Part shown: positions 2,782 through 57,243 of the stretch, in pieces
How positions within the stretch are numbered: position 1 is the stretch's first letter
Layout of the letters: every line of letters begins with the position of its first letter
From: a virus
Length of the DNA: 64,000 nt
Virus record (IMG/VR): IMGVR_UViG_3300033142_001600
Coordinates: 1 to 64,000 of that record
Direction: 5' to 3' (one strand)
The notes under the pieces: generated by a model
What the model was told of the DNA's origin: nothing
Database searches by the model: none
Seen by the model: only the letters and a program-made list of their open reading frames with translations
Translations under genes and position numbers: made by a program

Positions 2782-2820
2782 GCCTATTACTCCTAAAATT
2801 TTTTGGGCAATTAAGAGGAA

Positions 2821-3025
2821 ATATTATATAGTGAGTAGGTAATGAGCCTACATGGTCTCTAGTGATAACAAATAAGGTTATACTACATTAATGGAAGGAG
2901 GATGCAAATGAAACAAGGCATGTAGTTGTACTCGTATTTGTTTTAACTAGATATAACTGGAAAGTAAAAATGAAGGGATTTGATAAGTATGTTCATTAGT
3001 CCCACCATACTTCACTATATAATAT
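2821..3025 (-). ncRNA. Long rod-like hairpin element, 6S-like architecture
   Basis: ATATTATATAGTGA (2821-2834) is the exact reverse complement of 3012-3025. Pairing continues inward (GTAGGT with ACCATAC, AATGA with TCATT). After an asymmetric bubble comes an imperfect stem of about 32 bp in which TCTAGT, ACAAATA and ACTACAT pair with ATGTAGT, TATTTGT and ACTAGA. A loop of about 30 nt caps it. Closing stem, central bubble and terminal stem-loop resemble 6S RNA in outline only. It could equally be a MITE remnant. Confidence 0.5.
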
Positions 3026-3027
3026 TG

Positions 3028-3243
3028 TTAAATCATTTTAGTTGATAAGTACCGTAAAGTGTCAGAAAACAGGTTATTTAATTCTTTTGCGAATGTTCGC
3101 ATATTACCTGACCACTCATATGTTTGTGCTAAGGTTGTATAGCTTGCTCCATTTTGTAGTATGCTTTTGCATTGGTTGAATTTAGTCCCTAACTCTTCAA
3201 AACGACAGATTAATTTATGTTGTTCTGTTTGTAATATGTTCAT
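3028..3243 (-). CDS. Small helical protein of unknown function
   Basis: 71 residues, predominantly helical. Its ATG follows the stop codon of the preceding membrane-protein gene by two bases and has no strong ribosome binding site of its own, which suggests translational coupling. No family recognised. Confidence 0.55.
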   Translation of the reverse strand: MNILQTEQHKLICRFEELGTKFNQCKSILQNGASYTTLAQTYEWSGNMRTFAKELNNLFSDTLRYLSTKMI

Positions 3244-3245
3244 TT

Positions 3246-3635
3246 TTATTTTACTGGTGCAGTAGGTAATAGACCTACAATATCTTTAAATGCAAAATAT
3301 TCCGGGTTGAAAATGTCAAAAAAGTCAGCACAAAATATAAAACCGGCAAGTAAAGTTAGAAACATTAGTATACCGTTTGCCCAAACCCAGCCAACTTCGT
3401 GGCCTCGATGATAAATGGAATAAGCATATACTTTTTCTTTTTCTTGTTTTTCTCCATCTATTGACAAGAATATAATACTTACAGTGATAGCAGTTAGAAA
3501 AATGCCAAGAGATACAAAAGCATCAACAAACTGTTGTTTTATAAACCAAGGTCAAATTTGCTGAACTCCAATGTTTAACTTGAGTGCTATCTTATCTAGG
3601 TAGTCCAATACCATTTGTAGTTTTTCTTCATTCAT
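3246..3635 (-). pseudogene. Small two-helix membrane protein gene interrupted by an in-frame UGA
   Basis: An ATG at 3635 preceded by GGAG opens a frame of 129 codons ending at 3246, broken only by TGA at 3554-3552 (codon 28). The interruption reads QQI-stop-PWFIKQQ. Downstream the frame encodes a hydrophobic helix (about residues 38-57), a charged segment with HRGHEVGW, and a second hydrophobic helix. A TGG-to-TGA change or programmed readthrough explains this best. Without readthrough only the C-terminal part, from the TTG at 3467, might be made. The protein looks like a small inner-membrane protein, perhaps holin-like. Confidence 0.6.
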
Positions 3636-3706
3636 TTTAATTCTCCAATAATTAAAGAAATTTCCGTTCTAGTAAGTTTTGTTATACAAGTTTATGTTTT
3701 TTTTAT

Positions 3707-3757
3707 TTGATTTTTATTTTTTTTTGGTTGTAAAAAAAAGAATAATATGATTTCATT
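3707..3757 (-). repeat. T-rich direct repeat, copy 1
   Basis: A roughly 50-bp block recurs at 4214-4262 with few differences. On the minus strand it contains TTCTTTTTTTTACA followed by CCAAAAAAA. Both copies lie upstream of leftward genes, so a shared promoter or processing signal is possible. Confidence 0.5.
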
Positions 3758-3776
3758 ATAGGACTGTACTATTCTG

Positions 3777-14954: not shown

Positions 14955-16835
14955 ATGAGTAAAATAATAGGTATAGATTTAGGAACTACTAATTCTTGTA
15001 TAGCTGTTGTAGAAAACAATGAGCCTAAGATTTTAAATAACAACGAAGGCGGTAGAACTATACCATCTATTATAGCTATGACAGATAAAGATGAACGGCT
15101 AGTAGGCACATTAGCAAAAAGACAGGCTGTTACTAATGCAAAAAACACAGTCTTTGCAATCAAAAGACTTATTGGAAGAAAATTTGATGATATAGAAGTT
15201 CAAAAAACTAAAAAGATGGTACCGTTTGAAATAATAGAAACACAAGGAAAAAATATATCTATAAAAATAAAAAATAAAAAATATAATCCTATAGAAATTT
15301 CTTCTATGCTTCTCAGCGAAATAAAACAAATAGCTAATACTTATTTTAATGAAGAAATCACAGATACTGTAATTACTGTTCCAGCATACTTTAATGATAA
15401 TCAACGACAAGCAACAAAAGACGCTGGAGAAATAGCTGGATTAAATGTCTTACGTATTATTAATGAACCTACTGCTGCTGCATTAGCTTATGGTTTAGCT
15501 AAAAAATTAAATGAAAAAATAGCAGTATTTGATTTGGGTGGTGGTACTTTTGATGTTTCTATATTAGAAATTGGAGATGGTGTGTTTGAAGTTAAATCTA
15601 CAAACGGTAACACTTTTCTTGGTGGCGAAGACTTTGATGCCCGTATTGTTGAATGGTTAGCAGATGAATTTAAAAAGGAACAAGGCCTAGATCTTAAAAC
15701 AGATCAAATAGCTCTTCAACGCCTTAAAGAGGCTGCTGAAAAAGCCAAGTGTGAACTTTCAAGTACTTTAGAAACTGATATCAATTTACCTTTTATTACT
15801 GCTGATACAAATGGCCCAAAGCATTTAGTTACTAAACTTACTAGGGCTAAACTTGAAAATTTAGTTGAAAGTTTGATTGATAGTCTTGATGAACCTTGTA
15901 TTACAGCTTTGAGAGATGCGGGCCTTAACAAACCAGATATAGATGAAGTTTTACTAGTTGGTGGTATGACACGTATGCCAAAAATACAAGAAAAAATAGA
16001 AAAAATATTTTCAAAGAAACCTAATAAGAATGTCAATCCCGATGAAGTAGTAGCAATTGGAGCAGCTATTCAAGGAGCTATTTTAAGTGGTGATATTCAA
16101 GATGTCGTTCTTTTAGATGTAACTCCTTTATCTCTTGGTATTGAAACACTTGGTCAAGTTATGACTAAGTTGATTGAAAAAAATACTACTATCCCTATTA
16201 AAGAAAATAAAGTATTTACAACTGCAACAGATAATCAAAACTCTGTAAGTATTCATGTGCTTCAAGGAGAACGTGAAATGGCTTATGGTAATAAAACAAT
16301 TGGAAGATTTGAATTAGTTGGAATTCCTCCAGCTATTCGAGGGATACCACAAATAGATGTTTCTTTTGATATAGATGCTAACGGTATTTTAAACGTTACA
16401 GCCAAAGACTTAGCTACAAACAAAGAACAGTCTATTAAGATTCAAGCCTCTAGTGGGCTCAGTGATGAGGAAATTGAAAAAATGAAGAAAGACGCAGAAC
16501 TTCATGCAGAAGAAGATAAAAAACAAAAAGAATTAGTAGAAATTAAAAATCAAACCAGTGCTTTAATATACAGTGTTGAAAAAAGTTTAGAAGAATTTAA
16601 AGATGATGTTGATGAAGAAACCAAAAAAACAATAAAAGAAAAAATAGAAGAGATTAATAAACTCATAGAAGGTGATGACATAGAAGCTATTAAAAAGACA
16701 CAGGGTGAGCTTATGCAATTTTCACAAAAACTATCAGAAATGATGTATAAGAAAAACAACCCTGACGCACAAAAAGCTGAAGGACAATCAAGTGAAGATA
16801 CTACAGAAAAAACACAAACAACTACCCAGGTTTAA
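14955..16835 (+). CDS. dnaK: Hsp70 chaperone DnaK
   Basis: 626 residues, close to the bacterial length of about 630-640. The nucleotide-binding domain shows [15 protein letters not shown] at residues 5-19, the [10 protein letters not shown] phosphate loop near 193 and the VGGMTRMP segment near 335. The substrate-binding domain follows, then a helical lid and a Thr/Glu/Gln tail. The C terminus ends KTQTTTQV, without the EEVD-like end. AAGGAG precedes the ATG. DnaK refolds proteins with DnaJ and GrpE; neither partner is seen here, so it presumably uses those of the host. It could help fold virion proteins or adapt host proteostasis. Confidence 0.97.
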
Positions 16836-19636: not shown

Positions 19637-20388
19637 TGATTACAATAGCCGCATCAGGATATTTTGACCCAATACACTCTGGGCATGTAGAGTATTTAAA
19701 ACTATCAAGAGAACTAGGAGATATGCTTGTAGTAATTCTTAATAACCAGGAACAGTGTATTTTAAAGAAGGGCAAACCTTTTATGCCGCTCAAAGATAAG
19801 ATAACTATTTTAGAAGAACTAAAATGTGTTGATAAAGTATTTATTTCTGTAGATAAAGATTCAACTGTCACAAAATCTTTGGAGTGTGTTATACCAGACA
19901 TTTTTGCAAAAGGCGGAGATAGGTTTTCGTATGAAATACCTGAAGCTAATATATGTAAAAAACTAAACATTGAAATAGTTGATGGGGTTGGAGAAAAAAC
20001 ACAATCATCTTCAGGCTTGATAGCAGAAGCAACTCAACAAAAAACGGAAAGATGTTGGGGTTATTACTCTATACTGGCGGAAGGTAAAGGCTATAAAGTT
20101 AAATTATTAGAAATAAGACAAGGAATGAGTATATCATTACAAAAACATAACCATAGATCTGAACATTGGGTGATAGTTAATGGCACAGCTACAGTAATAA
20201 ATGTGGATAAACAAAGGATTATAGATCCTCCGTTATTGTTATATGCTAATCAATCTACATATATCCCAAAAAATACAATACATAAATTATCTAACCTCGG
20301 TAAAACACCTTTAAAAGTGATCGAGGTTCAATGTGGTGAATACTTGGAGGAAAACGATATTGAAAGATTTGAACCAAACAAAAAGTAA
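19636..20388 (+). CDS. Fusion of cytidylyltransferase-like and mannose-6-phosphate isomerase-type cupin domains
   Basis: 250 residues. Residues 1-130 form a RfaE/TagD-type nucleotidyltransferase: GYFDPIHSGHVEYL at 8-21 with the HxGH motif, and KGGDRF near 92. Residues 133-245 are a cupin of the type fused to mannose-1-phosphate guanylyltransferases, with RCWGYYSILAEGKGYKVK, LQKHNHRSEHW (metal-binding His) and VIVNGTA. The pairing of these two in one chain is unusual. It suggests activation of a sugar phosphate to a nucleotide sugar plus isomerisation. The ATG follows the HAD stop directly (TAATG). Confidence 0.8.
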   Translation: MITIAASGYFDPIHSGHVEYLKLSRELGDMLVVILNNQEQCILKKGKPFMPLKDKITILEELKCVDKVFISVDKDSTVTKSLECVIPDIFAKGGDRFSYEIPEANICKKLNIEIVDGVGEKTQSSSGLIAEATQQKTERCWGYYSILAEGKGYKVKLLEIRQGMSISLQKHNHRSEHWVIVNGTATVINVDKQRIIDPPLLLYANQSTYIPKNTIHKLSNLGKTPLKVIEVQCGEYLEENDIERFEPNKK

Positions 20389-20989
20389 ATGGCCGAGTTT
20401 AAAATTAGAAAAACAATTAAAAACTCAAGGCTTTAAAAAAATAATAGGAGTAGACGAGAACGGACGAGGAAGTTTGGCAGGCCCTGTAGTTTCCGCTGCT
20501 GTTTGTATTCCTGAAGGGTTCGACACCAGAGGAATAAGAGATTCAAAAAAGATGACAGCCTCTGCTAGAAAAAGACTATATGATAGAATAACTTCTAATT
20601 GTGAATATAGTATAGGTATGGCATCAGAGAAAATCGTAGATCAAATAAACATACAACAGGCAACACTGGTTGCTATGAAAAAAGCTATATTTGGAATAGA
20701 AGACGTTGACTTTGTTTTGGTAGACGGAAAATATATACCAAGTAAATTAGGTATAAATGCTAAAGCTGTTATAAAAGGTGACAACATTTCTGTCTCGGTT
20801 GCTGCAGCTTCTATTGCGGGTAAGATTTTTCGAGATAATTTAATGAAGGTTTTACATGATTATTACCCAATGTATGGGTGGGATAAGAACTTTGGATATG
20901 GAACAGTTATTCACAGAGAAGCTATAGAAAAATATGGACCTTGTGAATATCACAGAAAAACATTTAGAAAAGTAAAAGAATTTATATAA
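20360..20989 (+). CDS. rnhB: Ribonuclease HII
   Basis: About 209 residues from a TTG start at 20360, which has GGAGG nine bases upstream. An upstream in-frame ATG at 20333 has no such site. IGVDENGRGSLAGPVVSAAV carries the first catalytic Asp-Glu pair, DSKKM follows, and a further acidic residue lies in VLVDGKYI, with SIAGKIFRD near the C terminus. The enzyme nicks RNA in RNA-DNA hybrids and removes ribonucleotides or primers. The conserved Ala of DEAGRG is Asn here. It overlaps the fusion gene, so the two are co-translated. Length is normal for the family. Confidence 0.93.
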   Translation: MKDLNQTKSKWPSLKLEKQLKTQGFKKIIGVDENGRGSLAGPVVSAAVCIPEGFDTRGIRDSKKMTASARKRLYDRITSNCEYSIGMASEKIVDQINIQQATLVAMKKAIFGIEDVDFVLVDGKYIPSKLGINAKAVIKGDNISVSVAAASIAGKIFRDNLMKVLHDYYPMYGWDKNFGYGTVIHREAIEKYGPCEYHRKTFRKVKEFI

Positions 20990-21817: not shown

Positions 21818-21822
21818 TTTAT

Positions 21823-21838
21823 TGGCACAGTTATTGCA
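21823..21838 (+). promoter_or_regulatory. Sigma-54-type promoter of the non-coding region
   Basis: TGGCAC-AGTTA-TTGCA, an exact core match six bases after a stop codon. No gene starts for 700 bp downstream, so the immediate product is a non-coding RNA or a very long leader. Confidence 0.8.
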
Positions 21839-21847
21839 TGTATAACT

Positions 21848-22310
21848 AGTTCATAGAAATGAAATATAACAATCGACCTCAGCAAACCAGAGGATGATTA
21901 GTTGTTGCTTTAATTAATTTTATACGCCGAATTAAAATTTAAACAACTAATTATGATTGGTCAGGCCCCACAGCCAGCCTGCCGAGAATAGGTTAGTTTC
22001 TAAGAATTCTCCAGTATAAACCTGGGGAGTTAGTTTACTCTTTGATGGATTGTTTTTTAATCCTGTTGCTCCACAACTGTAGATTTTAATAAAGTTTGAT
22101 TTTAGTGAAGTCTAGGGGGTTATTTAGGAATTACTTAATTGTAATGGCGTATCAAGGCAGACGAAGAGGCGCATTTCTTAAATAGTCGAATATGTCCGAA
22201 AGTGTAATAAAACACTTTACACTGACCCTTTCCCAGCCCAGTACAAGTTTATTGTGCTGGACTGGGAGGGGTCTATCAATTGAACCGAAGTGTAATGCTT
22301 AAGAACATAT
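21848..22310 (+). ncRNA. Large structured non-coding RNA candidate (about 460 nt or longer)
   Basis: No open frame. Stems visible: TTAGTTGTT (21897-21905) with AACAACTAA (21941-21949); CTC-CAG with CTG-GG-GAG near 22009-22028; GGATT/AATCC (22047-22063); GTTG/CAAC near 22065-22077; AAAGTGT/ACACTTT (22199-22218). A nearly perfect 21-bp stem lies at 22223-22274, with arms differing only by G-U-compatible changes. A TTTCTTAA/TTAAGAA pairing closes the last two hairpins. Wobble pairs favour an RNA function. Driven by its own sigma-54-type promoter. Size and ornament recall GOLLD or ROOL RNAs; identity not established. Confidence 0.6.
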
Positions 22311-22363
22311 GTTAAATCTAATACTAAAAAATGTTAAATCTAATATTAAAAAGTGTTAAATCT
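22310..22363. repeat. Three 22-bp tandem repeats
   Basis: TGTTAAATCT occurs at 22310, 22332 and 22354, exactly 22 bp apart, with related A/T-rich spacers. Directly downstream a hairpin GAATTTGATA/TATCAAATTT lies at about 22374-22410. The remainder to 22538 is AT-rich with no gene. Could be regulator-binding iterons upstream of the gene at 22539 or part of an origin. Confidence 0.65.
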
Positions 22364-22538
22364 TAAAAAGAGCGAATTTGATAAAATTTAATAAACACAT
22401 ATCAAATTTGATCAAGTAAAGAACATTGAAGAGTTGAATAATTAACCAACTTATCGTTAATATAGTAGAGATTATAGTTCAATAGACTTTAAAACAAAAT
22501 ACAGGGTAATAGTCTAAGACCCTTAAAAGGAGAGTACA

Positions 22539-23312
22539 ATGTATTCAAACAAGTTAATCGTAGCACTAAAACACAAAGGTAAAATTTTAAGAGAACGTTC
22601 AGGTTTTGTATCCCTTCCATTTAATTCTGAGTATTCATTACTTGTAAAAAATCTCAATACCAGAAAAGTATCAGTTAATATTTCTATAGATAGTGAGGAT
22701 GTTCTTAACAGCAACTCTTTATTAGTTTATCCTGATTCTGAAACAGAACTGAAAGGTTTTATGGATGGTATGACAGCTAAGAATAAGTTTAAGTTTATCC
22801 AAAAAACAAAAAAAATAAGTGATTATAGAGGAGACAAAATAGACGATGGATTAATCAGAGTAGAGTTTGCATTTGAAAAAGAAAAACCTGAGATAGTTCA
22901 TAACCATCACGTATGCCATAATAAAGATGCTTGGTATTGGTCTCAAATTCCTCGGAGATTATATCGTCATAGAGAGCCTCTTTGGTCAAACAGTAGTGTA
23001 AAATGTAGTTTTAATTCTGGTAATAACGCTGCGGATGTTATGGAATCAAATACTTTATATAGTAATAATTCTTTTAATGATGATGGAATAACAGTAAAAG
23101 GTTCCGAAATAAACCAAGATTTTAATTATGGTAATATTGATGAATTAGAACAAAGCAATGTAATGATTATTAAATTGCGTGGTGAAGAAAATAGTGGAAC
23201 ACTTGTTAGAAAACCTGTGACAGTCAGAACTAAGCTAGTTTGTTCAACATGTGGAAAGAAATCAAGATCTGATTTAAAATATTGTTCTAGATGCGGAACG
23301 TTTTTAAATTAA
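22539..23312 (+). CDS. Phage protein with C-terminal zinc ribbon
   Basis: 257 residues. N-terminal half (residues 1-120) is beta-rich, with VSLPFNSEYSLLVKNLNTRKVSVNISID and a DDGLIRVEFAFEK segment, resembling proteins that recur in large phages and are annotated as hypothetical. The middle is Ser/Asn-rich linker. Residues 230-255 hold CSTCGK and CSRCGTF, a zinc ribbon. AAAGGAGAG precedes the ATG. It may be a virion or internal protein. No function can be assigned. Confidence 0.65.
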   Translation: MYSNKLIVALKHKGKILRERSGFVSLPFNSEYSLLVKNLNTRKVSVNISIDSEDVLNSNSLLVYPDSETELKGFMDGMTAKNKFKFIQKTKKISDYRGDKIDDGLIRVEFAFEKEKPEIVHNHHVCHNKDAWYWSQIPRRLYRHREPLWSNSSVKCSFNSGNNAADVMESNTLYSNNSFNDDGITVKGSEINQDFNYGNIDELEQSNVMIIKLRGEENSGTLVRKPVTVRTKLVCSTCGKKSRSDLKYCSRCGTFLN

Positions 23313-26651: not shown

Positions 26652-26948
26652 TTAAGTAAAAGTATAGTATCTATCTATTTTTTTTATTATGGTATGAAAT
26701 GGTAAGTTTTCTTTATATTTCTCAAGTTGATCAATCAGCACACTTGATCCTGTAAAAACTATATAATTAATATCATTTATCTTAAACTGAATAGTAGCAT
26801 ACAAAGAGTCCTGTTTCTTTTTGCTTTCCTTTACTTTGAAATCCAAAATAAGAATTTCCTGATTCAAGATATTTTCAATTTTTTTCTTATCGCCATCAAA
26901 AGCTTTTGTTTTTTCTGCAAAGTCTGAGAATTTTGGATATTCAGTCAT
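26652..26948 (-). CDS. Small protein downstream of the reverse transcriptase
   Basis: 98 residues. Strands DSLYATIQFKINDINYIVFTGSSVLIDQLEKY suggest an OB-like or other small alpha/beta domain. It overlaps the reverse transcriptase by eight bases, so the two are co-translated. It does not resemble the four-helix Avd accessory protein. It may be an alternative accessory factor or a nucleic-acid binding protein for the retroelement. This is position-based inference. Confidence 0.55.
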   Translation of the reverse strand: MTEYPKFSDFAEKTKAFDGDKKKIENILNQEILILDFKVKESKKKQDSLYATIQFKINDINYIVFTGSSVLIDQLEKYKENLPFHTIIKKIDRYYTFT

Positions 26949-27999
26949 TAGTGTACCCCAAAGGATTATGAAGCTTATTTACTATACAAACATTGCCCAC
27001 AATTTTTTTAATATCATAATCAATATATAGTTTTTTCAATTTATAGCAATTTGCATATTTCATCCATCCCCAATAACTCATAATTCCGCTTAAGATGTTT
27101 ATCGGAGTTAATGAATAATATCTTTTTTTAATATAATTTATTCTTTGTTTAAATCTAACAGCTGTCCTCTTTCTTAAAAGAGTATAATCATGAAAAAACC
27201 GATAACCAAGAAAGTCTATTCCTCTTTTATCAATTGGAAATATTTGCCAATTAGTCTTTAACACAAGATTCAGATTAATATGTAGATAGTTAGATATTTC
27301 TTTTCTCAGCTCACTTAAGTATTTTTTATCAGAATGCAATACACAAACGTCGTCGCAGTAGCGAAATGTGTATTTGCATCTTTTTTGTTCTTTTAGCCAA
27401 TGATCTAATCCCGACAAGTACAAATTACCAAAGTATTGGCTCAAGTAATTTCCGATAGGTACACCGCTTGCCGAATCAATAATAAGATCCAGTAGCCAAA
27501 GAACATTCTTATCCTTGATTTTTTTTCCGATGACTCTTTTTAAAATACCATGATCAACAGATGGGTAAAACTTGCGTATATCCATTTTAAGACAATATTT
27601 TGTATTTTCTCTGTCTTTAAGGGCTTTCTTAATTCGCTTAACGCCTTTATGAATTCCTCTGTTTTTTAATGATGAATAAGTATCTGTAATCAGTGTTTTT
27701 ATCAATATAGGTTCTAATATGTTCATAATACAATGATGAATAATCCGATCAGGAAAGTAAGGGAGTTTGAAGATTTCTCTTTCTTTACCTTTATCTTTTT
27801 TTGTAAATACTTGATACTCGGAGTTATGAAAGGTCTTATTTTTCAACATATTGTGAATTTTCATAAAATATTTTTCTGGATCAGCTTCTACCATTTTAAC
27901 TTCCGAATAATGAGATTTGCCTTTCTTGGCATTTTTATGCGCTAACCTGATGTTTTCGATGTCATACATTTTATGATATAAGTTTCCGTATCTTTTCAT
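26941..27999 (-). CDS. Reverse transcriptase of diversity-generating retroelement (DGR) type
   Basis: 352 residues. YCLKMDIRKFYPSVDH (135-150) holds the first catalytic Asp140. GVPIGNYLSQ (179-188) is the SQ signature that separates DGR enzymes from group II intron and retron enzymes, followed by the family-like NLYLSGLDHWLKE. YCDD (214-217) is the active-site box, and IDFLGYRF (261-268) the next motif. There is no maturase or nuclease domain. It lies 64 bp downstream of a lectin-like gene with a hypervariable end, the normal DGR target. The enzyme copies a template-repeat RNA with adenine mutagenesis. No template repeat is visible in this window. Confidence 0.92.
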   Translation of the reverse strand: MKRYGNLYHKMYDIENIRLAHKNAKKGKSHYSEVKMVEADPEKYFMKIHNMLKNKTFHNSEYQVFTKKDKGKEREIFKLPYFPDRIIHHCIMNILEPILIKTLITDTYSSLKNRGIHKGVKRIKKALKDRENTKYCLKMDIRKFYPSVDHGILKRVIGKKIKDKNVLWLLDLIIDSASGVPIGNYLSQYFGNLYLSGLDHWLKEQKRCKYTFRYCDDVCVLHSDKKYLSELRKEISNYLHINLNLVLKTNWQIFPIDKRGIDFLGYRFFHDYTLLRKRTAVRFKQRINYIKKRYYSLTPINILSGIMSYWGWMKYANCYKLKKLYIDYDIKKIVGNVCIVNKLHNPLGYTND

Positions 28000-28063
28000 T
28001 TGTCTTGTTTTATCTCAGAGTCTTCAATTTCTTTACCAACACTTATGAGATTTATTTTATATT

Positions 28064-29797
28064 TTAGCAAGAGCTAAGGTTATCATAATTTAATACTTTA
28101 AAACAAGATAACTGGCCTGCGATATTCTGATTAGTGTTACCTGACGAATTATTCAGATTCCAATAAGCGACCCCCGCACACGCGCCACCACTACTCGCGC
28201 GACCGCCCAGCATAGCCACCCGCCAACCCCCAGATTGGTAATAATAATCAGTTATATACGTATTTGGATCACCGCCAACTGAAGCGGGCAGAAATCCTCT
28301 GGCAATCTGTTCAAGGGTTTTTTGATATCCGTTTGAACCAGGTAATACTATCCCAAGGTTGGTGTAATTAGTCCAAGTATTATCTGCAAAATTAGTATCA
28401 TTATTGCAGACATGAACTTTGTGGTCATCTGCCCCCGTTGCCCCACCAATATTTATTCCATCTACCCATTTCCATACATGACCAAAAAGGTTTTCTATTC
28501 CTCTATAACTCATATAAGAACCAAGAGCATTAGCCCCGTTATCAATAGCGCCAGAAGCATTACCCAAGCCATTTGACAGTCCTGTTTTTTCAATAGGATT
28601 ATAACTAGATCGATTTAACCAATTCGTACTTCCAAAGCTGGTTAAACCAGCACCTATCATACTTTGAGAATTCCAAGAAGCATATTCAACCAAATAAAAT
28701 AATTGAATAGTTGAGATCAAATCATAATCTTGTTGTCTCCAGCCGGTTTCTCGATTACTCGCTACTGCCCTGAAATTAGCTCTTGTTCCTTGGTTTATAG
28801 GAGTTTTACTAGCAACCGAACTTAATTTATCTCCAGTTGAGGCCACCCAATTTCTTTGAGTTTGAAGATATGCCCTGGGCGCATAATCTTCATCTGTGAT
28901 TGCCTCATCAACTGTAAAAGATTGGTCTCCTGTAGAGGCTACTGTAAAGGTAGAGTTATTATGAGCTGAGCTTGATATAGTAATTTTATCCCCCACCTCT
29001 AATCTTGTATAGGGGTTTGTCATAGCAACTTCAAGCGAAGCTATGTGAACTGTACAACTTGACCCAGTTCCACCAGAGGTCGCAACTACTCCTGCCGTGT
29101 GACCATAGCCTTTTGTTGTCAATGTAATCGTGAGGACTTCCCCACTACCACCAATACTTGCGACAGTTACTGTGGCTCCGGTAGTCCCACCTGCTAAGGT
29201 CAAAACATCATCAACAGAATATCCAGTCCCAGCCGCCGCTCCGACCATATCAACTGTTTTTACTGTGCCGGTTCTATGGATTATGGTTTTTGATGCAGAA
29301 ATAAAGCCTACATTATGGGCTAATTGATATACCCCGTTAGTATATCTTGAAGCGGATACGTCATAAAGAACGCCTTCATAAGCAGACATGTATCTATTCT
29401 TAACCCACTCGTCATTTTTGTAGAAGGCGTCAAGACGAGTAGCCCCATTAAATTGTTCTTTCGATATTAGATAATGGTGTTTTGAATTCGCATACCAATA
29501 CTTTAGCCAACCTTGCGGAACTTCCACCATTACTTGGCCGTCAGCCCCAGTAAGAACGGAAGGGGTGACCATGTCTTCTTTCTTTGTGCGGTCAGTGGCC
29601 CCGGTATAATACTGGACTGCCCCAGCATCATTCAGAAGACAACCCCTCATCCTGGATTGTAAAGCCATAAGATTATCAGGTAATTTTGCCGCGGCAGGAC
29701 AGCTTTGACCTTGGCCTATTCGTTCTAAAGTAGGGGAGCTTTGGCTTTCATCCCATACCACCCCCGTCGCCTGGAAATGTTTTCTGCGGTGTGCCAT
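28064..29797 (-). CDS. DGR variable protein: tail-associated C-type-lectin/formylglycine-enzyme-like adhesin
   Basis: 577 residues. N-terminal 150 residues are a virion-attachment-like region. Residues about 180-260 hold a Gly-rich beta domain with repeated TGYSVDDVL and GYGHTA-type turns, as in tail spikes. The C-terminal 250 residues are the C-type-lectin fold, with GIENLFGHVWKWVDG and a final GGWRVAMLGG (523-532) leading into an Asn/Ser/Gly-rich variable tail. Visibly richer in G+C than its neighbours, suggesting transfer. It overlaps the gene upstream by one base. Expected role is receptor binding with tropism switching. Confidence 0.9.
   Translation of the reverse strand: MAHRRKHFQATGVVWDESQSSPTLERIGQGQSCPAAAKLPDNLMALQSRMRGCLLNDAGAVQYYTGATDRTKKEDMVTPSVLTGADGQVMVEVPQGWLKYWYANSKHHYLISKEQFNGATRLDAFYKNDEWVKNRYMSAYEGVLYDVSASRYTNGVYQLAHNVGFISASKTIIHRTGTVKTVDMVGAAAGTGYSVDDVLTLAGGTTGATVTVASIGGSGEVLTITLTTKGYGHTAGVVATSGGTGSSCTVHIASLEVAMTNPYTRLEVGDKITISSSAHNNSTFTVASTGDQSFTVDEAITDEDYAPRAYLQTQRNWVASTGDKLSSVASKTPINQGTRANFRAVASNRETGWRQQDYDLISTIQLFYLVEYASWNSQSMIGAGLTSFGSTNWLNRSSYNPIEKTGLSNGLGNASGAIDNGANALGSYMSYRGIENLFGHVWKWVDGINIGGATGADDHKVHVCNNDTNFADNTWTNYTNLGIVLPGSNGYQKTLEQIARGFLPASVGGDPNTYITDYYYQSGGWRVAMLGGRASSGGACAGVAYWNLNNSSGNTNQNIAGQLSCFKVLNYDNLSSC
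28103..28230 (-). other. Putative DGR variable region (VR)
   Basis: Codes for residues about 524-565 of the lectin-like protein. WRVAMLGG is followed by small or variable residues, then YWNLNNSSGNTNQNI, the spacing seen in DGR targets where Asn (AAY) codons of the template are diversified. Ends close to the stop codon, as usual. The matching template repeat was sought on both strands by eye and not found. Confidence 0.6.
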
Positions 29798-33688: not shown

Positions 33689-34817
33689 ATGGATAAGATC
33701 AAGTGCCCTAATTGCGGATTCGAATTCGAATTATCGCAAACATTGTTTTCTGAGTTAGAAAATGAATTAAAAGATAAACTTAAAGAAAAAACTAAAGCCT
33801 TAGAAATTTCTTCGGCGGCCGAAAAAAAGAAACTTAAAGAAGAACTTTTAAATGAGAAACAAGAATTCATTAATGGTGTGGAGAAAGATACAACCAAAAG
33901 ACTACAAGAAGAGTTTGATTTAAAAGCTAAACTTTCTCAAGATCAGTTAACAACAATAAATGATAAATATCTGCAGTCGCAGCAAAAGATTCAGAAACTT
34001 TTAGTAGAAACAGCCAACAGTCGCCAAATTATAGAGGAAGAGCGAGTACGTTTGTTGGAAGAAAACAATAAAGTTAAAAAAGAATTAGAAATAAAAATAC
34101 AAACTAAAGTAGATGAAGAGCACAGGTTAAAAACTTTAGAACGTGATAAAGTTATAGAAGATCAAAAAAAGAAATTATTAGAAATGCAAAGAAAATTGGA
34201 AACCGGATCTTCACAATTAGTTGGTGAGGTGCTTGAACTCGATATAGAAACTCGCTTACAAAGTATATACCCATTAGACAAAGTAAAAGAGGTTTTAAAG
34301 GGGATAGCCGGTGCTGATGTAAAGCAAACTGTAATGAATAATTTCTCGCAAGAATGTGGTTTAATACTTATTGAAACAAAGAATACAAAAGAGTTTGCTA
34401 AAAAATGGATAAATAAATTAAGAGATGATAACTACTGTTTTACCAACGGGTGTAAAGTATTTTACAATACAAGAAGGTATAATTATTTGTAATTATGATT
34501 TGTTTTTTGGTTTATTAGATGTCTTTAGACATAAATTGATAGATATGCACGGGTTAAGATTATCCAATCAGAATAAATCTAGCAGACTCAGTATATTGTA
34601 TGATCATGTTACGGATCAAAAATTTATAGATAAGATTCAACTTCTTTATAATTTGTATTCTGATATGAAAAACTCATTAGAAGCTGAAAAAAACTCTATT
34701 AAACGGGCATGGAATAAGCGGGAAGTAGAATTAAAAATATTTTCAGATAATGTTGATTCTATTTGGTCGGAATTAAACGCTATAACAAATGTATTTCCAG
34801 AGGGGTTTGGTCAATAG
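33689..34817 (+). pseudogene. DUF2130 gene split by a frameshift/deletion
   Basis: The first frame (33689-34492) encodes a zinc ribbon (CPNCGFEFEL), a long coiled coil, and the DUF2130 core ETGSSQLVGEVLELDIETRL and LILIETKNTKEFAKKWINKL. After LRDD it shifts. A second frame from about 34425 continues with TTVLPTGVKYF, GIIICNYDLFFGLLDVFRHKL and a C-terminal coil, the known downstream half. A short segment between them seems deleted, by a length not divisible by three. DUF2130 proteins have a nuclease-like core. The gene is probably inactive unless frameshifting occurs or the sequence has an error. Confidence 0.7.
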
Positions 34818-35988: not shown

Positions 35989-36065
35989 TCCAGAGTAGCT
36001 CAGTTGGTAGTAGCGTACGGCTGTTAACCGTGTTGTCGGGGGTTCGAATCCCTCCTCTGGAGCCA
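35989..36065 (+). tRNA. tRNA-Asn (anticodon GUU)
   Basis: A full cloverleaf: acceptor TCCAGAG/CTCTGGA, anticodon stem ACGG/CCGT around CTGTTAA, T arm with GGTTCGAATCC, discriminator G and encoded CCA. It serves the AAY codons that are common in this AT-rich genome. Confidence 0.93.
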
Positions 36066-36067
36066 AA

Positions 36068-36143
36068 GCCGGCATAGTTTAGTTTGGTAAAATATCTGAT
36101 TTGTACTCAGATGTCAGGGGTTCGAGGCCTCTTGCTGGCTCCA
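36068..36143 (+). tRNA. tRNA-Thr (anticodon UGU)
   Basis: Acceptor GCCGGCA/TGCTGGC with one G-U pair, D stem GTTT/AAAT, anticodon stem TCTGA/TCAGA around TTTGTAC, T stem AGGGG/CCTCT, encoded CCA. It starts two bases after the Asn tRNA, so both come from one precursor. It reads ACA, a favoured Thr codon here. Confidence 0.88.
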
Positions 36144-46504: not shown

Positions 46505-46505
46505 T

Positions 46506-46631
46506 ATGATAAGAAGATGTAAATTTTGTAATAGTTTGGTTTCCGTAAAAAGGCTATGAAGTGGGCGAATACGTTACCTCTGTAAGAGGTGTAAAAAAAT
46601 ATTAAAGGTTTCAGAAGTTGTTGAAAAATAA
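46506..46631 (+). pseudogene. Small zinc-ribbon gene interrupted by in-frame UGA
   Basis: The ATG at 46506 opens RRCKFCNSLVSVKRL, then TGA at 46557-46559, then SGRIRYLCKRCKKILKV in the same frame to TAA. The two halves together form a typical CxxC...CxxC ribbon in which a Trp is expected near the break. One base change (TGG to TGA) would explain it. Readthrough is possible but unproven. Confidence 0.55.
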
Positions 46632-46649
46632 AAAAAGTAGGTGAACAAA

Positions 46650-46868
46650 ATGTATAAGGAGAATGGTCGTTTAAACATAAGTGTGGCTGGCACTGTGTCT
46701 GATTTTACTGATGAAGGCACAGAAGCTTGTATAATTATAGATGGAGAAAAGGTTAGAATTAAACCTTCTTCTTCTAAGTTGTTGGCTAAAATTAAAAAAG
46801 GTTCGTATGTGAAACTTGAGTGTTATTTAGAGAACGGAAAACTATTTGCGTCCAGTAGGTCTGATTAA
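46650..46868 (+). CDS. Small OB-fold-like protein
   Basis: 72 residues from the ATG at 46650; the in-frame GTG at 46641 is part of the likely ribosome binding region. Strands NISVAGTVSDFTDEGTEACIIIDGEKV and GSYVKLECYLENGKL suggest a compact beta barrel that binds nucleic acid. Not assigned. Confidence 0.55.
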   Translation: MYKENGRLNISVAGTVSDFTDEGTEACIIIDGEKVRIKPSSSKLLAKIKKGSYVKLECYLENGKLFASSRSD

Positions 46869-47090
46869 ATGAATAAAATAGATAAAGATATTATTTCTGT
46901 TAGCTTATCAGAAAGAGATGAAAATTTATATGATGTAGTTATATATTTTAATTTGGTTAAGCACATGGCTGTTTATAGTCCGATTGTAGGTATTATGTAT
47001 AGTTCTTTGCCACAGAACACAAAAGAAGATCAAGAGGTATTATTTAGAGTATCTAATGAAATAAAAAAAGTTTTAAATAAGGGTATATAA
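46869..47090 (+). CDS. Small protein of unknown function
   Basis: 73 residues, alpha/beta, starting at the base after the previous stop codon. No family recognised. Confidence 0.55.
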   Translation: MNKIDKDIISVSLSERDENLYDVVIYFNLVKHMAVYSPIVGIMYSSLPQNTKEDQEVLFRVSNEIKKVLNKGI

Positions 47091-47099
47091 TATAAGATA

Positions 47100-53317: not shown

Positions 53318-53720
53318 TGAAAAAAAAGTATTTCTTGGCGGAACTTGTAATGAAAGTACTTGGCGCAACAGGATGGTGATTTATTTACACGAAGAAGGGG
53401 TCGAATGGTTTAATCCCGTTGTTCCTGATTGGACAGAAGCATGTATGACACAAGAAATTAAGGAACGTGAGACTTGTGATTTTGTTCTTTATACAATTAC
53501 GCCAAAAATGACAGGAGTTTATTCCATTGCTGAAGTTGTCGATGATAGCAATAAAAGACCAAGCAAGACTATTTTGGTGCTATTACGTGATGATAGAGAT
53601 TTGCGTTTTTCAAAGGGGCAGTGGAAATCACTTGGTGCTGTAGCCAAAATGGTTACTCGTAATGGTGGCAACGTTTTTGATAGTTTAAAATCTGCTGCTA
53701 TATACATTGGTGGCAAGTAA
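53307..53720 (+). CDS. Nucleoside 2-deoxyribosyltransferase-like protein
   Basis: 137 residues from the ATG at 53307, overlapping the endonuclease end. KVFLGGTCNESTWRN, WFNPVVPDW and CDFVLYTITPKMTGVYSIAEVVD fit the family (PF15891-like) that moves deoxyribose between bases. In phages it may recycle nucleosides or hydrolyse base-deoxyribose bonds. It lies before the large terminase. Active-site acids are plausible but unverified. Confidence 0.7.
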   Translation: MVNNEKKVFLGGTCNESTWRNRMVIYLHEEGVEWFNPVVPDWTEACMTQEIKERETCDFVLYTITPKMTGVYSIAEVVDDSNKRPSKTILVLLRDDRDLRFSKGQWKSLGAVAKMVTRNGGNVFDSLKSAAIYIGGK

Positions 53721-53721
53721 A

Positions 53722-55422
53722 ATGAAGTCATATGAAATAGTTAAAGCACAAGCTAACAGTTTAGTATCTTTTTATCGCCAACATCCAGTAATTGCTGCTT
53801 ATGATTTATTAGGTGTTACACTTGATGAAATCCAACGTATTATTTTTAGAGACATGTGGTTTAAGGATTATGTTATTATTGTAGCTCGTCGTGGTTTAGG
53901 TAAAAGTTTTTTACAAGCATTGTTGGCAACTTTAAAAGCATTACTATATCCTGGTCATAGAGTCGGTTTAATTGGAAGTTCGTATAGACAAAGTAAAGTA
54001 ATGTTTCGAGAAGTAGAAGCCTTATATCAACAATCGGAAATATTTAGAGAAGCCACAATGCGGGCTCCAGTAAAGAGTACAGATATGTGTGAGGTAAAAT
54101 TCAGGCCGGCAGGGAAGTATTCAGGTTCGTCTATTTTAGCTATCCCTTTAGGTAATGATGGTTCTAAAATTAGAGGCCAAAGATTTTTCACAATCTGCGT
54201 GGATGAATTCGCGGTTGTGCCTGAGCAAGTATTTAATCTTGTAATTAGACCTATGGCAGCTACTACTCATGACCCCATGTCAAACGTAGCAAGAATGAAA
54301 AGACAGAAAAAATTAATAGCATTAGGTTTAGAGGTGGAAGAAGAGTCTAATGTTAATAAAATAGTTATGACCTCGTCTGGGTTTTTTAAAGTTAATCATA
54401 TGTGGAATCGAATGAGGCATTATTGGAAAAAAATAGAATCAGGCGATAATACTTACGCTGTTCATCAAGCTTCTTATACTGATTTGTCAGAAGGGTTTTT
54501 AAATAAAGGTAACATTGAAGAAGCAAGAGAAACAATGCCACGAGCGTTGTTTGAGATGGAGTATTGTGGAAAAATGATTTCCGATTCCGAAGGATTCTTT
54601 AAAGCGTCAATGATAGAAGCGTGTATTGCTAATAAGTTAGATAATTACTTTAGTGTAAAACTAAAAGGAAATAAAGATTCAAAATATGTTATGGCAATAG
54701 ACCCAGCTAGAACAAGCGATTCTTTTGCTATTCTTATTTTTAAAGTTAGTGAAATTATTACAAAACTTGTTTATGCTGTTACATATACAGGTATAAGCTC
54801 AATAGAAACTGTTCACGAAGTATTTAGATTAAGGGATAATTTTGATTTAGTTAGAATCGTAATGGATTCACAGGGTGGTGGACTTAATATAAAAGATTTA
54901 CTTGAAGCTGGTATAGATAATAATAAACCTATTTTAGATTTATTAGATAAGGATAACTATGGAAAAGATGGGGATTTAATATTACAGCTGTTTAATCCGA
55001 GTCCATCAACAAACACTGATGCTAATTTTACAGCATTAGCTATGTTGGAAAAGAATAATTTTTTGTTTCCTGGTCCTCCGCAGTTTGGGTATGAGGAAGA
55101 GGATGATTTATATGAATATATAGAGTTATTAAAAAGACAGATATTAAGTATAGTAGTAACCCAAAACCCTAATGGGAGTTTGAATTTTAATACTCAATCA
55201 GCAAAAGCTAAAAAGGATTTATATTCATGTTTTATAATGGGTTGTTGGGTGATAAAACAAATAGCAAAAGAGAGAGAGATGTCTACTGAACAGGAACAGA
55301 TACTGTCTTATACAGGTGTTATAAATAATAGAACAGGTGGTTCTATGAATAATCAGTACATAGATAGAGTAAATAATTTCGGCGGTGGAATAAGGCCGTT
55401 GATAGTTCCTACTGTAATATAA
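53722..55422 (+). CDS. terL: Terminase large subunit
   Basis: 566 residues from the ATG at 53722; an earlier in-frame GTG-type start is inside the previous gene. ARRGLGKS (55-62) is the Walker A/adenine-binding P loop, TICVDEFA (D161-E162) Walker B, and MAIDPARTSDS near 325 with VMDSQGGG begin the RNase H-like nuclease. It drives packaging ATPase and cuts concatemers. It precedes the portal gene by 15 bases. Confidence 0.95.
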   Translation: MKSYEIVKAQANSLVSFYRQHPVIAAYDLLGVTLDEIQRIIFRDMWFKDYVIIVARRGLGKSFLQALLATLKALLYPGHRVGLIGSSYRQSKVMFREVEALYQQSEIFREATMRAPVKSTDMCEVKFRPAGKYSGSSILAIPLGNDGSKIRGQRFFTICVDEFAVVPEQVFNLVIRPMAATTHDPMSNVARMKRQKKLIALGLEVEEESNVNKIVMTSSGFFKVNHMWNRMRHYWKKIESGDNTYAVHQASYTDLSEGFLNKGNIEEARETMPRALFEMEYCGKMISDSEGFFKASMIEACIANKLDNYFSVKLKGNKDSKYVMAIDPARTSDSFAILIFKVSEIITKLVYAVTYTGISSIETVHEVFRLRDNFDLVRIVMDSQGGGLNIKDLLEAGIDNNKPILDLLDKDNYGKDGDLILQLFNPSPSTNTDANFTALAMLEKNNFLFPGPPQFGYEEEDDLYEYIELLKRQILSIVVTQNPNGSLNFNTQSAKAKKDLYSCFIMGCWVIKQIAKEREMSTEQEQILSYTGVINNRTGGSMNNQYIDRVNNFGGGIRPLIVPTVI

Positions 55423-55437
55423 TAGGAGAATGCGGTT

Positions 55438-57243
55438 ATGGTCAAAAAAGATTTAAATATTTTAAAAGGCGAACTTAATACTAAGTATGATACTAATATA
55501 TTAGATATCCAAGAAAATAAAGACGGCTCTGTATCATTTATGGTTGATAAATCTTCTGTTTCTCCGGGTTTTCTTAAAGATAGAAAAATAAATGATAGTA
55601 AAGTAGTTGGTTCTGTTGTTAGCAGACCAAGAATGGATAGAACATATTTAGATCTTCAAAATAAAACAACTGTAGCACAGAGGAAACCACATGTTTTATA
55701 TAAAAGATCTGCTGATGAGTATCTTAATGATCCTATATATGGTGCCAGTATAAATGTTTTAAGTAACTTTGCGTGTAAAGGTTTTGAAAATGATTCTGAG
55801 GATTTGGATATTAAATACTTTTTTGATTGTTGGTGTTTTGATACTAATTTTGAAGAAGTATTAGAGTGGGTATTTTTAGATTTTTTTAGAATGGGCATGG
55901 TTAGAACTTATAAAATTCTTGGTAAATATGTTCCTAGTATAAATAATATATCAGATCCTTCTGAAATTGTTAAAGATAAAAGCTCAAGTGCTGCCGGGGC
56001 TGTAGAAGATAAAGTTTCAGGTGCTGCCAAAGTAAGATGGTCTAAAAAAGATATACCTTTAAAATATACAGTTCTTAATCCAAATTTTGTTGAAATAGAA
56101 GGAAGTTTACTGTTTGGTGATGCTAAGACAACTTTAAAACCAAATACTGAACTTAAAGATTTATTTAAGAAAAAAACAAAGGATTTAACTACAGAAGAGA
56201 AAAACTTAATTCAAAAATTACCGTCTAAATTTAAAAAAGCATTAAAAGATGGAAAAAATATACCATTAGATCCACAATTAGTAGGCGAGATTGATTATAG
56301 GAAGATGCCGTATGAAAGGTATGGTTTACCTCGTGGTGCTAGAGTATTTGAATCTTTAAATTATAAAAAGTCTTTACGTGATGCCGATCTGTCAACGTTA
56401 GATGGTATTACTAATTATATTTTAAAAATTACGGTAGGTAGTGATAAGTTTCCTGTTACTTCACAAGAGCAGTTAGAACAGGTAGCACAGTTGTTTAACA
56501 CGCCTAGTAAATCTTTTGATGTAGTTTATAATCATACCTTGAAAATAGAAAAAATAACATCTCCAGAAATAGAAGCAGTGTTAGGTAAAGAAAAGTATGC
56601 ACAAGTTAATGAAGATATTTCTGGTGGTTTATCTTTACCAAGAGTGTTACTTGACGGTGTTGGTGATTTGAATACAGCGGAAGTGAATACTGTTGTAAAG
56701 TCTGTTGTTGAAGAAATACATTATGCAAGAAAATGTGTAACTAGGTGGATATATAAAGAATATATATTTATTGCTGAGGCTCTTGGTTTTACTAAGATAC
56801 CTAGAGTTAGATGGGATGATACTATACTTAAGGATATATTAATGTATATGTCTATAATAGGACAATTAGTAGATAGGCGTATGTTAAGTTATAAAACAGC
56901 TCTCGAACGTTTAGGTTTCAACTTTATGTCAGAGCTTACAAATATGCGTAAGGAACTTCCTATAGTACTTAATGAAGGTGCATTTGGTATTATAGGTAGT
57001 CCGTGGCAACAAGCGGCTGGATTAGCGTATACCCAAGATACTCAAATGGCCCCACAAGGAAGCCCATCGCAAGGAAAGCCTGTTGGTGAAGAACCTACTG
57101 AAAATCAAGATACTACACCCGACAAACAGAGTAAAGAAAACGATGGAGAAAGTAGTGCTAATATAGACGAAGAGTTGCTTAAAAAAGTTGGTGGATTAGA
57201 TCATGCTTTAAAAATTAAGTTGTTGAAGTTAATCAATGAGTAG
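55438..57243 (+). CDS. Portal protein
   Basis: 601 residues. The order terL-portal-protease and a large alpha/beta body support the call. DEYLNDPIYGASINVLSNFACKG near 98-120, an inserted loop with SAAGAVEDKVSGAA, and a helical WIYKEYIFIAEALGFTKIPRVRW near 437-459 are like portal stems. Twelve copies form the packaging vertex. The C-terminal 60 residues are disordered (Pro/Glu/Gln). Confidence 0.85.
   Translation: MVKKDLNILKGELNTKYDTNILDIQENKDGSVSFMVDKSSVSPGFLKDRKINDSKVVGSVVSRPRMDRTYLDLQNKTTVAQRKPHVLYKRSADEYLNDPIYGASINVLSNFACKGFENDSEDLDIKYFFDCWCFDTNFEEVLEWVFLDFFRMGMVRTYKILGKYVPSINNISDPSEIVKDKSSSAAGAVEDKVSGAAKVRWSKKDIPLKYTVLNPNFVEIEGSLLFGDAKTTLKPNTELKDLFKKKTKDLTTEEKNLIQKLPSKFKKALKDGKNIPLDPQLVGEIDYRKMPYERYGLPRGARVFESLNYKKSLRDADLSTLDGITNYILKITVGSDKFPVTSQEQLEQVAQLFNTPSKSFDVVYNHTLKIEKITSPEIEAVLGKEKYAQVNEDISGGLSLPRVLLDGVGDLNTAEVNTVVKSVVEEIHYARKCVTRWIYKEYIFIAEALGFTKIPRVRWDDTILKDILMYMSIIGQLVDRRMLSYKTALERLGFNFMSELTNMRKELPIVLNEGAFGIIGSPWQQAAGLAYTQDTQMAPQGSPSQGKPVGEEPTENQDTTPDKQSKENDGESSANIDEELLKKVGGLDHALKIKLLKLINE

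Follow-up and report, generated by a model that had tools for sequence, protein, structure and literature searches.

What is encoded in some 690 bases of phage DNA that hold no gene and follow an intact promoter core? The question is raised by one stretch of the window, by which we mean the whole 64,000 nucleotides of viral DNA analysed here, the greater part of a virus record with 64,714 bases (G000). The initial annotation had read this stretch as one large structured non-coding RNA under its own sigma-54-type promoter. The promoter, the strong folding and the lack of genes all stood up to analysis, but a single 690-nt RNA did not, as its 3' end proved to be a leader in its own right, conserved in phages without the rest.

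The window probably comes from the genome of a jumbo phage, since contigs of 223-248 kb occur among its relatives and homologues of the protein encoded next to the gene-free stretch are present in three jumbo phages, XacN1, RAS14 and CM1 (see below). Its large-phage gene set includes HSP70 (14955-16835), RNase HII (20333-20989) and terminase plus portal (53707-57243), and it also encodes homing endonucleases and a reverse transcriptase that adjoins a tail protein. The latter two belong to a probable diversity-generating retroelement at 26941-29797, a candidate made up, all on the minus strand, of the reverse transcriptase (26941-27999), an RT-17 RNA (28000-28081) and the tail protein (28064-29797).

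The gene-free stretch and its promoter

No gene is found between 21819 and 22538, where the longest internal frame has 36 codons' worth of amino acids and lacks a ribosome-binding site, in agreement with the earlier claim of about 690 gene-free bases. Folded as a whole (21845-22530, 690 nt), the sequence is far more stable than expected (z -6.9), and the strongest-folding block of the entire window lies at 21826-22350. Nevertheless, the stretch does not form one RNA, since about 50 nt at its end belong to a conserved leader of the downstream gene and positions 22306-22480 are AT-rich with 22-bp repeats. The G+C content shifts near 22305, from 0.32-0.43 upstream to 0.17-0.23 downstream. The stretch is thus a composite of a structured region (21848-22305), an AT-rich spacer and the leader of the next gene.

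The promoter, TTGGCACAGTTATTGCA at 21822-21838 on the plus strand, has an exact core, as the initial annotation had stated (TGGCACAGTTATTGCA at 21823-21838, of the GG-N10-GC type), and its predicted start falls at about 21848-21850. Exact TGGCAY-N5-TTGCA sites occur ten times in the window, all on the plus strand, against 0.04 expected from shuffled sequences; they span positions 714 to 61912 and most lie 30-100 nt upstream of a gene. The site at 21823 stands out because no gene begins until some 700 nt further downstream. Two of the ten are kept at orthologous genes in two related records (G002 and G003) whose surrounding sequence has diverged. The exact core, the tenfold recurrence mostly upstream of genes and the two sites kept in relatives make the site at 21823 credible.

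Searches for a sigma-54 gene or an enhancer-binding activator gene (PF00158, PF04552) gave none in G000-G003, all of which are fragments, so that sigma-54 and its activator would come from the host or from unsequenced parts of the phage; the host may supply both. The tenfold occurrence of this promoter type suggests that the phage draws on activator-dependent transcription machinery of its host. Such a phage-wide set of sigma-54-type promoters is unusual, and a literature search, whose incomplete coverage makes it weak evidence of novelty, found no phage described with one.

The structured region and its lack of homologues

On the basis of its folding, its G+C content and the absence of a coding frame, the structured region at 21848-22305 (plus strand) is probably a non-coding RNA of about 460 nt. 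Its excess of folding is stronger on the plus strand (z -6.3) than on the minus strand (z -4.1), consistent with a plus-strand RNA, and in a scan of the whole plus strand the two best-folding 150-nt windows were those starting at 22126 and 22201. The predicted helices on that strand comprise a 13-bp stem with an inner 7-bp hairpin at 21894-21954 (helix probability 0.74), a hairpin with a C-rich loop at 21957-21985 (TTGG-CAGGC...GCCTG-CCGA, 0.88-0.95), a 10-bp hairpin at 22005-22031 (0.86) and a long hairpin of 9 + 6 bp at 22080-22114 (0.93-0.96). The dominant element is the 21-bp, G+C-rich hairpin that had already been pointed out, located at 22224-22273 (-34.5 kcal/mol, z -7.1), which is not an intrinsic terminator since no T-run follows it. 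Much of the fold signal of the region comes from this one hairpin: when 22219-22279 is left out, the z-score of the remainder drops to -2.5, while 21848-22110 by itself has a z-score of -3.5. A multibranch closed by TTTCTTAA/TTAAGAA, also proposed earlier, does not appear among the helices with probability above 0.3, the more frequent partner of TTTCTTAA being TATTTAGGA at 22121-22129. That the 21-bp stem is kept by G-U compatible changes, as the initial annotation had put it, goes beyond what a single sequence can show. Since no homologue was found, the structure given here is a purely thermodynamic prediction.

The search for homologues was broad. Rfam, at gathering as well as permissive thresholds, gave only chance matches, and blastn against INPHARED and PLSDB returned nothing beyond brief chance matches over 5-6% of the query. 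There was no match to the large RNA in 50 related virus records, nor by blastn and nhmmer in about 5 Mb of sequence from relatives, and single-sequence covariance models of 22117-22285 and 21872-22035 reached a best E-value of 2.9 against 1.5 Mb of relatives. Exact scans of IMG/VR with two short motifs of the large RNA returned matches whose flanks disagreed, scans with neighbouring proteins for a closer relative carrying the region yielded none, and comparison with other parts of the window revealed no extended antisense complementarity. The closest relative contig (G001, 99.5% identical) begins near window position 34,360, so that the structured region lies outside its span. Five relatives that could be read fully upstream of the gene behind the leader have opposite-strand genes there at once and no large RNA, and a sigma-54-like site within 800 nt of that gene was observed in only one of 78 relatives. 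Structured gaps in relatives were considered as counterparts and rejected, being a likely group I intron, tRNA-bearing DNA or repeat-rich DNA; the intron candidate (L225:2137-2581) interrupts a gene of relative G018 and is probable as judged by eye, with no Rfam match at gathering score. With no homologue by DNA or covariance-model searches, and with G001 stopping short of it, the region is an orphan. It may represent an RNA gene specific to this lineage, belong to a leader of unusual length, or be a relic.

Phages are known to carry large ornate RNAs, and the initial annotation had raised GOLLD and ROOL as candidates. What the region shares with these is a long, highly folded RNA without a coding frame in a phage genome; it differs in being shorter (~460 nt), in its sigma-54-type promoter and in the lack of a covariance-model match. 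For GOLLD (RF02032, a model of the conserved 3' region) there was no match at E ≤ 10, in a search in which controls scored only below the family's cut-off. The ROOL model (RF03087) also gave no match at E ≤ 10, in a by-name search that had no working control, as it detected none of 14 control genomes. GOLLD and ROOL are frequently found near tRNA islands (PMC12286853), in contrast to the structured region, which is 13.5 kb from the two tRNA genes of the window (35989-36143). HEARO (RF02033) was not matched by its covariance model either; moreover, HEARO adjoins its own endonuclease gene, whereas the adjoining gene here encodes a zinc-ribbon protein, which is another fold. Nothing therefore supports filing the large RNA under GOLLD, ROOL or HEARO, although a large RNA that works like GOLLD or ROOL, which form homo-oligomeric cages, may exist here, the evidence being compatible with it. 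We would only tentatively suggest that 21848-22305 founds a new, lineage-specific class of large ornate phage RNA, induced through host sigma-54 during infection.

The spacer, the pseudoknot leader and its gene

The AT-rich spacer (22306-22480, G+C 0.17-0.23) separates the structured region from the leader. It holds three TGTTAAATCT boxes at 22310, 22332 and 22354, exactly 22 bp or two helix turns apart, and an inverted repeat (22361-22383 / 22400-22422). From this arrangement, it is likely to be protein-binding DNA rather than RNA.

The best-supported RNA of the gene-free stretch is the pseudoknot leader of the next gene, at 22483-22532 on the plus strand. In the window, P1 pairs TAGACT (22483-22488) with AGTCTA (22511-22516), P2 pairs AGGGT (22503-22507) with ACCCT (22519-22523), and the ribosome-binding site AAAAGGAG (22525-22532) follows directly after the knot. 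P2 is a 5-bp hairpin; its ~9-nt loop and a strand immediately upstream form the 6 bp of P1. The general layout runs from the 6-nt strand through TTTAA, a variable A-rich stretch, the 5-nt strand and ~2 nt to a segment complementary to the 6-nt strand, followed after 0-2 nt by one complementary to the 5-nt strand and then by AGGAG. A 9-nt loop that leaves two bases unpaired at one flank and a single base at the opposite flank has the geometry of known loop-loop helices, so that P1 and P2 can form together.

At least 80 metagenomic loci carry relatives of the gene behind the leader, and 78 of them could be read upstream of the start codon. In all 78, as well as in XacN1 and RAS14, the leader has a fixed position, adjoining the ribosome-binding site of this one orthologous gene. 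Across the whole family, with 37 distinct stem combinations, 99.5% of the alignment cells are paired and double changes number 103, where shuffles average 21 and never exceed 37; these counts lean towards structure, as seven of the metagenomic rows and both phage isolates had been anchored manually. When 16 diverse members were aligned with MAFFT and counted separately, 98.9% of cells were paired, with 45 cells double-changed versus 11 in shuffles; both sides had changed in nine of the 11 pairs, none of 500 shuffles reached the covariation score, and slid controls were paired in at most 46%. XacN1 and RAS14 have the same architecture with wholly different stems (CCACCT/AGGTGG and GGCTC/GAGCC). 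Judged from these sequences, the structure is kept by compensatory changes, as would suit a conserved cis-regulatory RNA leader. No Rfam family matches the leader of the window or of a relative. A scan of the loci with a leader descriptor found it ahead of this gene, besides about five chance-like matches (the reversed-sequence control gave 20), and gave no sign of its use ahead of other genes.

Read most naturally, the leader would be a translational operator, on which the product of the gene itself may act. In phage T4, the mRNA of gene 32 has a pseudoknot translational operator in its leader, near the ribosome-binding site. The leader described here resembles it in having a pseudoknot near the ribosome-binding site of a single gene, and differs from it in sequence, in layout (a ~9-nt loop with 2 + 1 nt unpaired at its sides and a 6-bp upstream pairing), in a knot that almost touches the ribosome-binding site, and in preceding an unrelated gene. 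The preQ1 and SAM-II riboswitches are small pseudoknots with an A-rich loop by the ribosome-binding site, and the leader is likewise a short pseudoknot with an A-rich loop that adjoins this site. Unlike these riboswitches, however, its stems vary freely while mainly TTTAA and a few loop letters are kept, and it precedes a single gene family rather than metabolic genes, with no match in Rfam. The literature search found no description of such a leader in jumbo phages, which, given its incomplete coverage, is weak evidence of novelty. Here, then, is a well-supported RNA element that lacks an Rfam entry, in phages from many metagenomes and with Xanthomonas and Stenotrophomonas hosts, and its presence in the isolates XacN1 and RAS14 allows direct testing.

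The gene itself (22539-23312, plus strand) encodes a beta-rich protein of 257 amino acids with a C-terminal zinc ribbon, and its homologues in XacN1, RAS14 and CM1 are 32-33% identical. In XacN1 the homologous gene adjoins the tail sheath gene. There were no homologues in 84,980 prokaryote genomes, and the predicted structure had no significant match among the solved structures of the PDB. In a Foldseek search of the predicted structures in BFVD, the fold matched uncharacterised proteins from large DNA viruses that infect eukaryotes, namely iridovirus, mimivirus-like, pithovirus and nudivirus entries, with E-values down to 1.9e-11 and TM-scores near 0.5.

An AGAACA box lies 74-102 nt upstream of the gene in 69 of the 78 relatives and 119 nt upstream in the window phage. 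Relatives also have a repeated motif, TTAATATATATAG, with a strong bias to one strand (L249 near 9880 on the minus strand, and loci of G030, G038 and G044). From its pattern of occurrence, the TTAATATATATAG / AGAACA motif is a probable phage promoter in the relatives. The full TTAATATATATAG motif is absent from the window, and an own promoter for the gene in the window phage is weakly suggested.

Two proposed adjacent units and the alternatives

We lean towards two adjacent units, a separate sigma-54-driven RNA of ~460 nt and a gene with its own pseudoknot leader. A separate RNA gene is favoured by the exact promoter, the excess of folding on the plus strand, the boundary in composition and the short leader of the relatives, where the leader stands alone, with its covariation, and no large RNA was found upstream. 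For the first unit, we infer that host RNA polymerase with sigma-54 would start at about 21848 and yield a strongly folded non-coding RNA of ~460 nt, whose 3' end would perhaps reach into the spacer at 22306-22420, and which would act as an RNA, most likely in trans. In the second unit, the 257-aa gene would be controlled by its own leader, with just a few nucleotides between the knot and the ribosome-binding site: if the gene product or another ligand stabilised the knot, the ribosome would be kept off, and an open knot would allow translation.

One may also consider that the whole 690 nt is a single long structured 5' leader, in which the folded part adds a layer of control. The gene that follows lies on the same strand, other sigma-54-type sites of this phage precede genes, and the search for terminator-like sites detected one inside the large RNA and none between the two units. 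It is because of this missing terminator that we regard the long leader as a real, if doubtful, possibility. Against it, all 78 relatives manage with a short leader that ends in the knot, leaders at the other sigma-54-type sites are mostly 30-100 nt long, and the AT-rich spacer with its 22-bp repeats resembles a regulatory DNA boundary. Obviously, an orphan sequence may also be a relic, for instance what is left of a mobile element or gene after decay, in which a long hairpin arose by chance. That the structured region is missing at the same place in relatives, and that one hairpin provides so much of the signal, would agree with this. Against it stand the exact promoter, the better folding on the plus strand than on the minus strand and the fold signal kept in 21848-22110 alone, and no residual similarity to proteins or elements was found; we consider it unlikely. 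Membership of a diverged kind in GOLLD, ROOL or another known family (HEARO, group I introns) would suit the phage genome, the size and the elaborate predicted fold, and is more improbable still, as neither Rfam at permissive thresholds nor the searches for ROOL (the one without a working control), GOLLD and HEARO by name gave a match, the tRNA genes are distant, and there is no adjoining endonuclease or interrupted gene. Returning to the two units, should the large RNA be transcribed, it would add to the ornate RNAs of phages, and would do so under a sigma-54-type promoter.

Elsewhere in the window, the ORF call leaves a further ~1 kb without a clear gene at 2782-3776, while another apparently gene-free stretch, 46505-47099, was rejected as an artefact of the gene finder. 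Among the relatives, the 223-kb contig G030 carries a c-di-GMP-I-GGC riboswitch aptamer (L203:18569-18643, minus strand).
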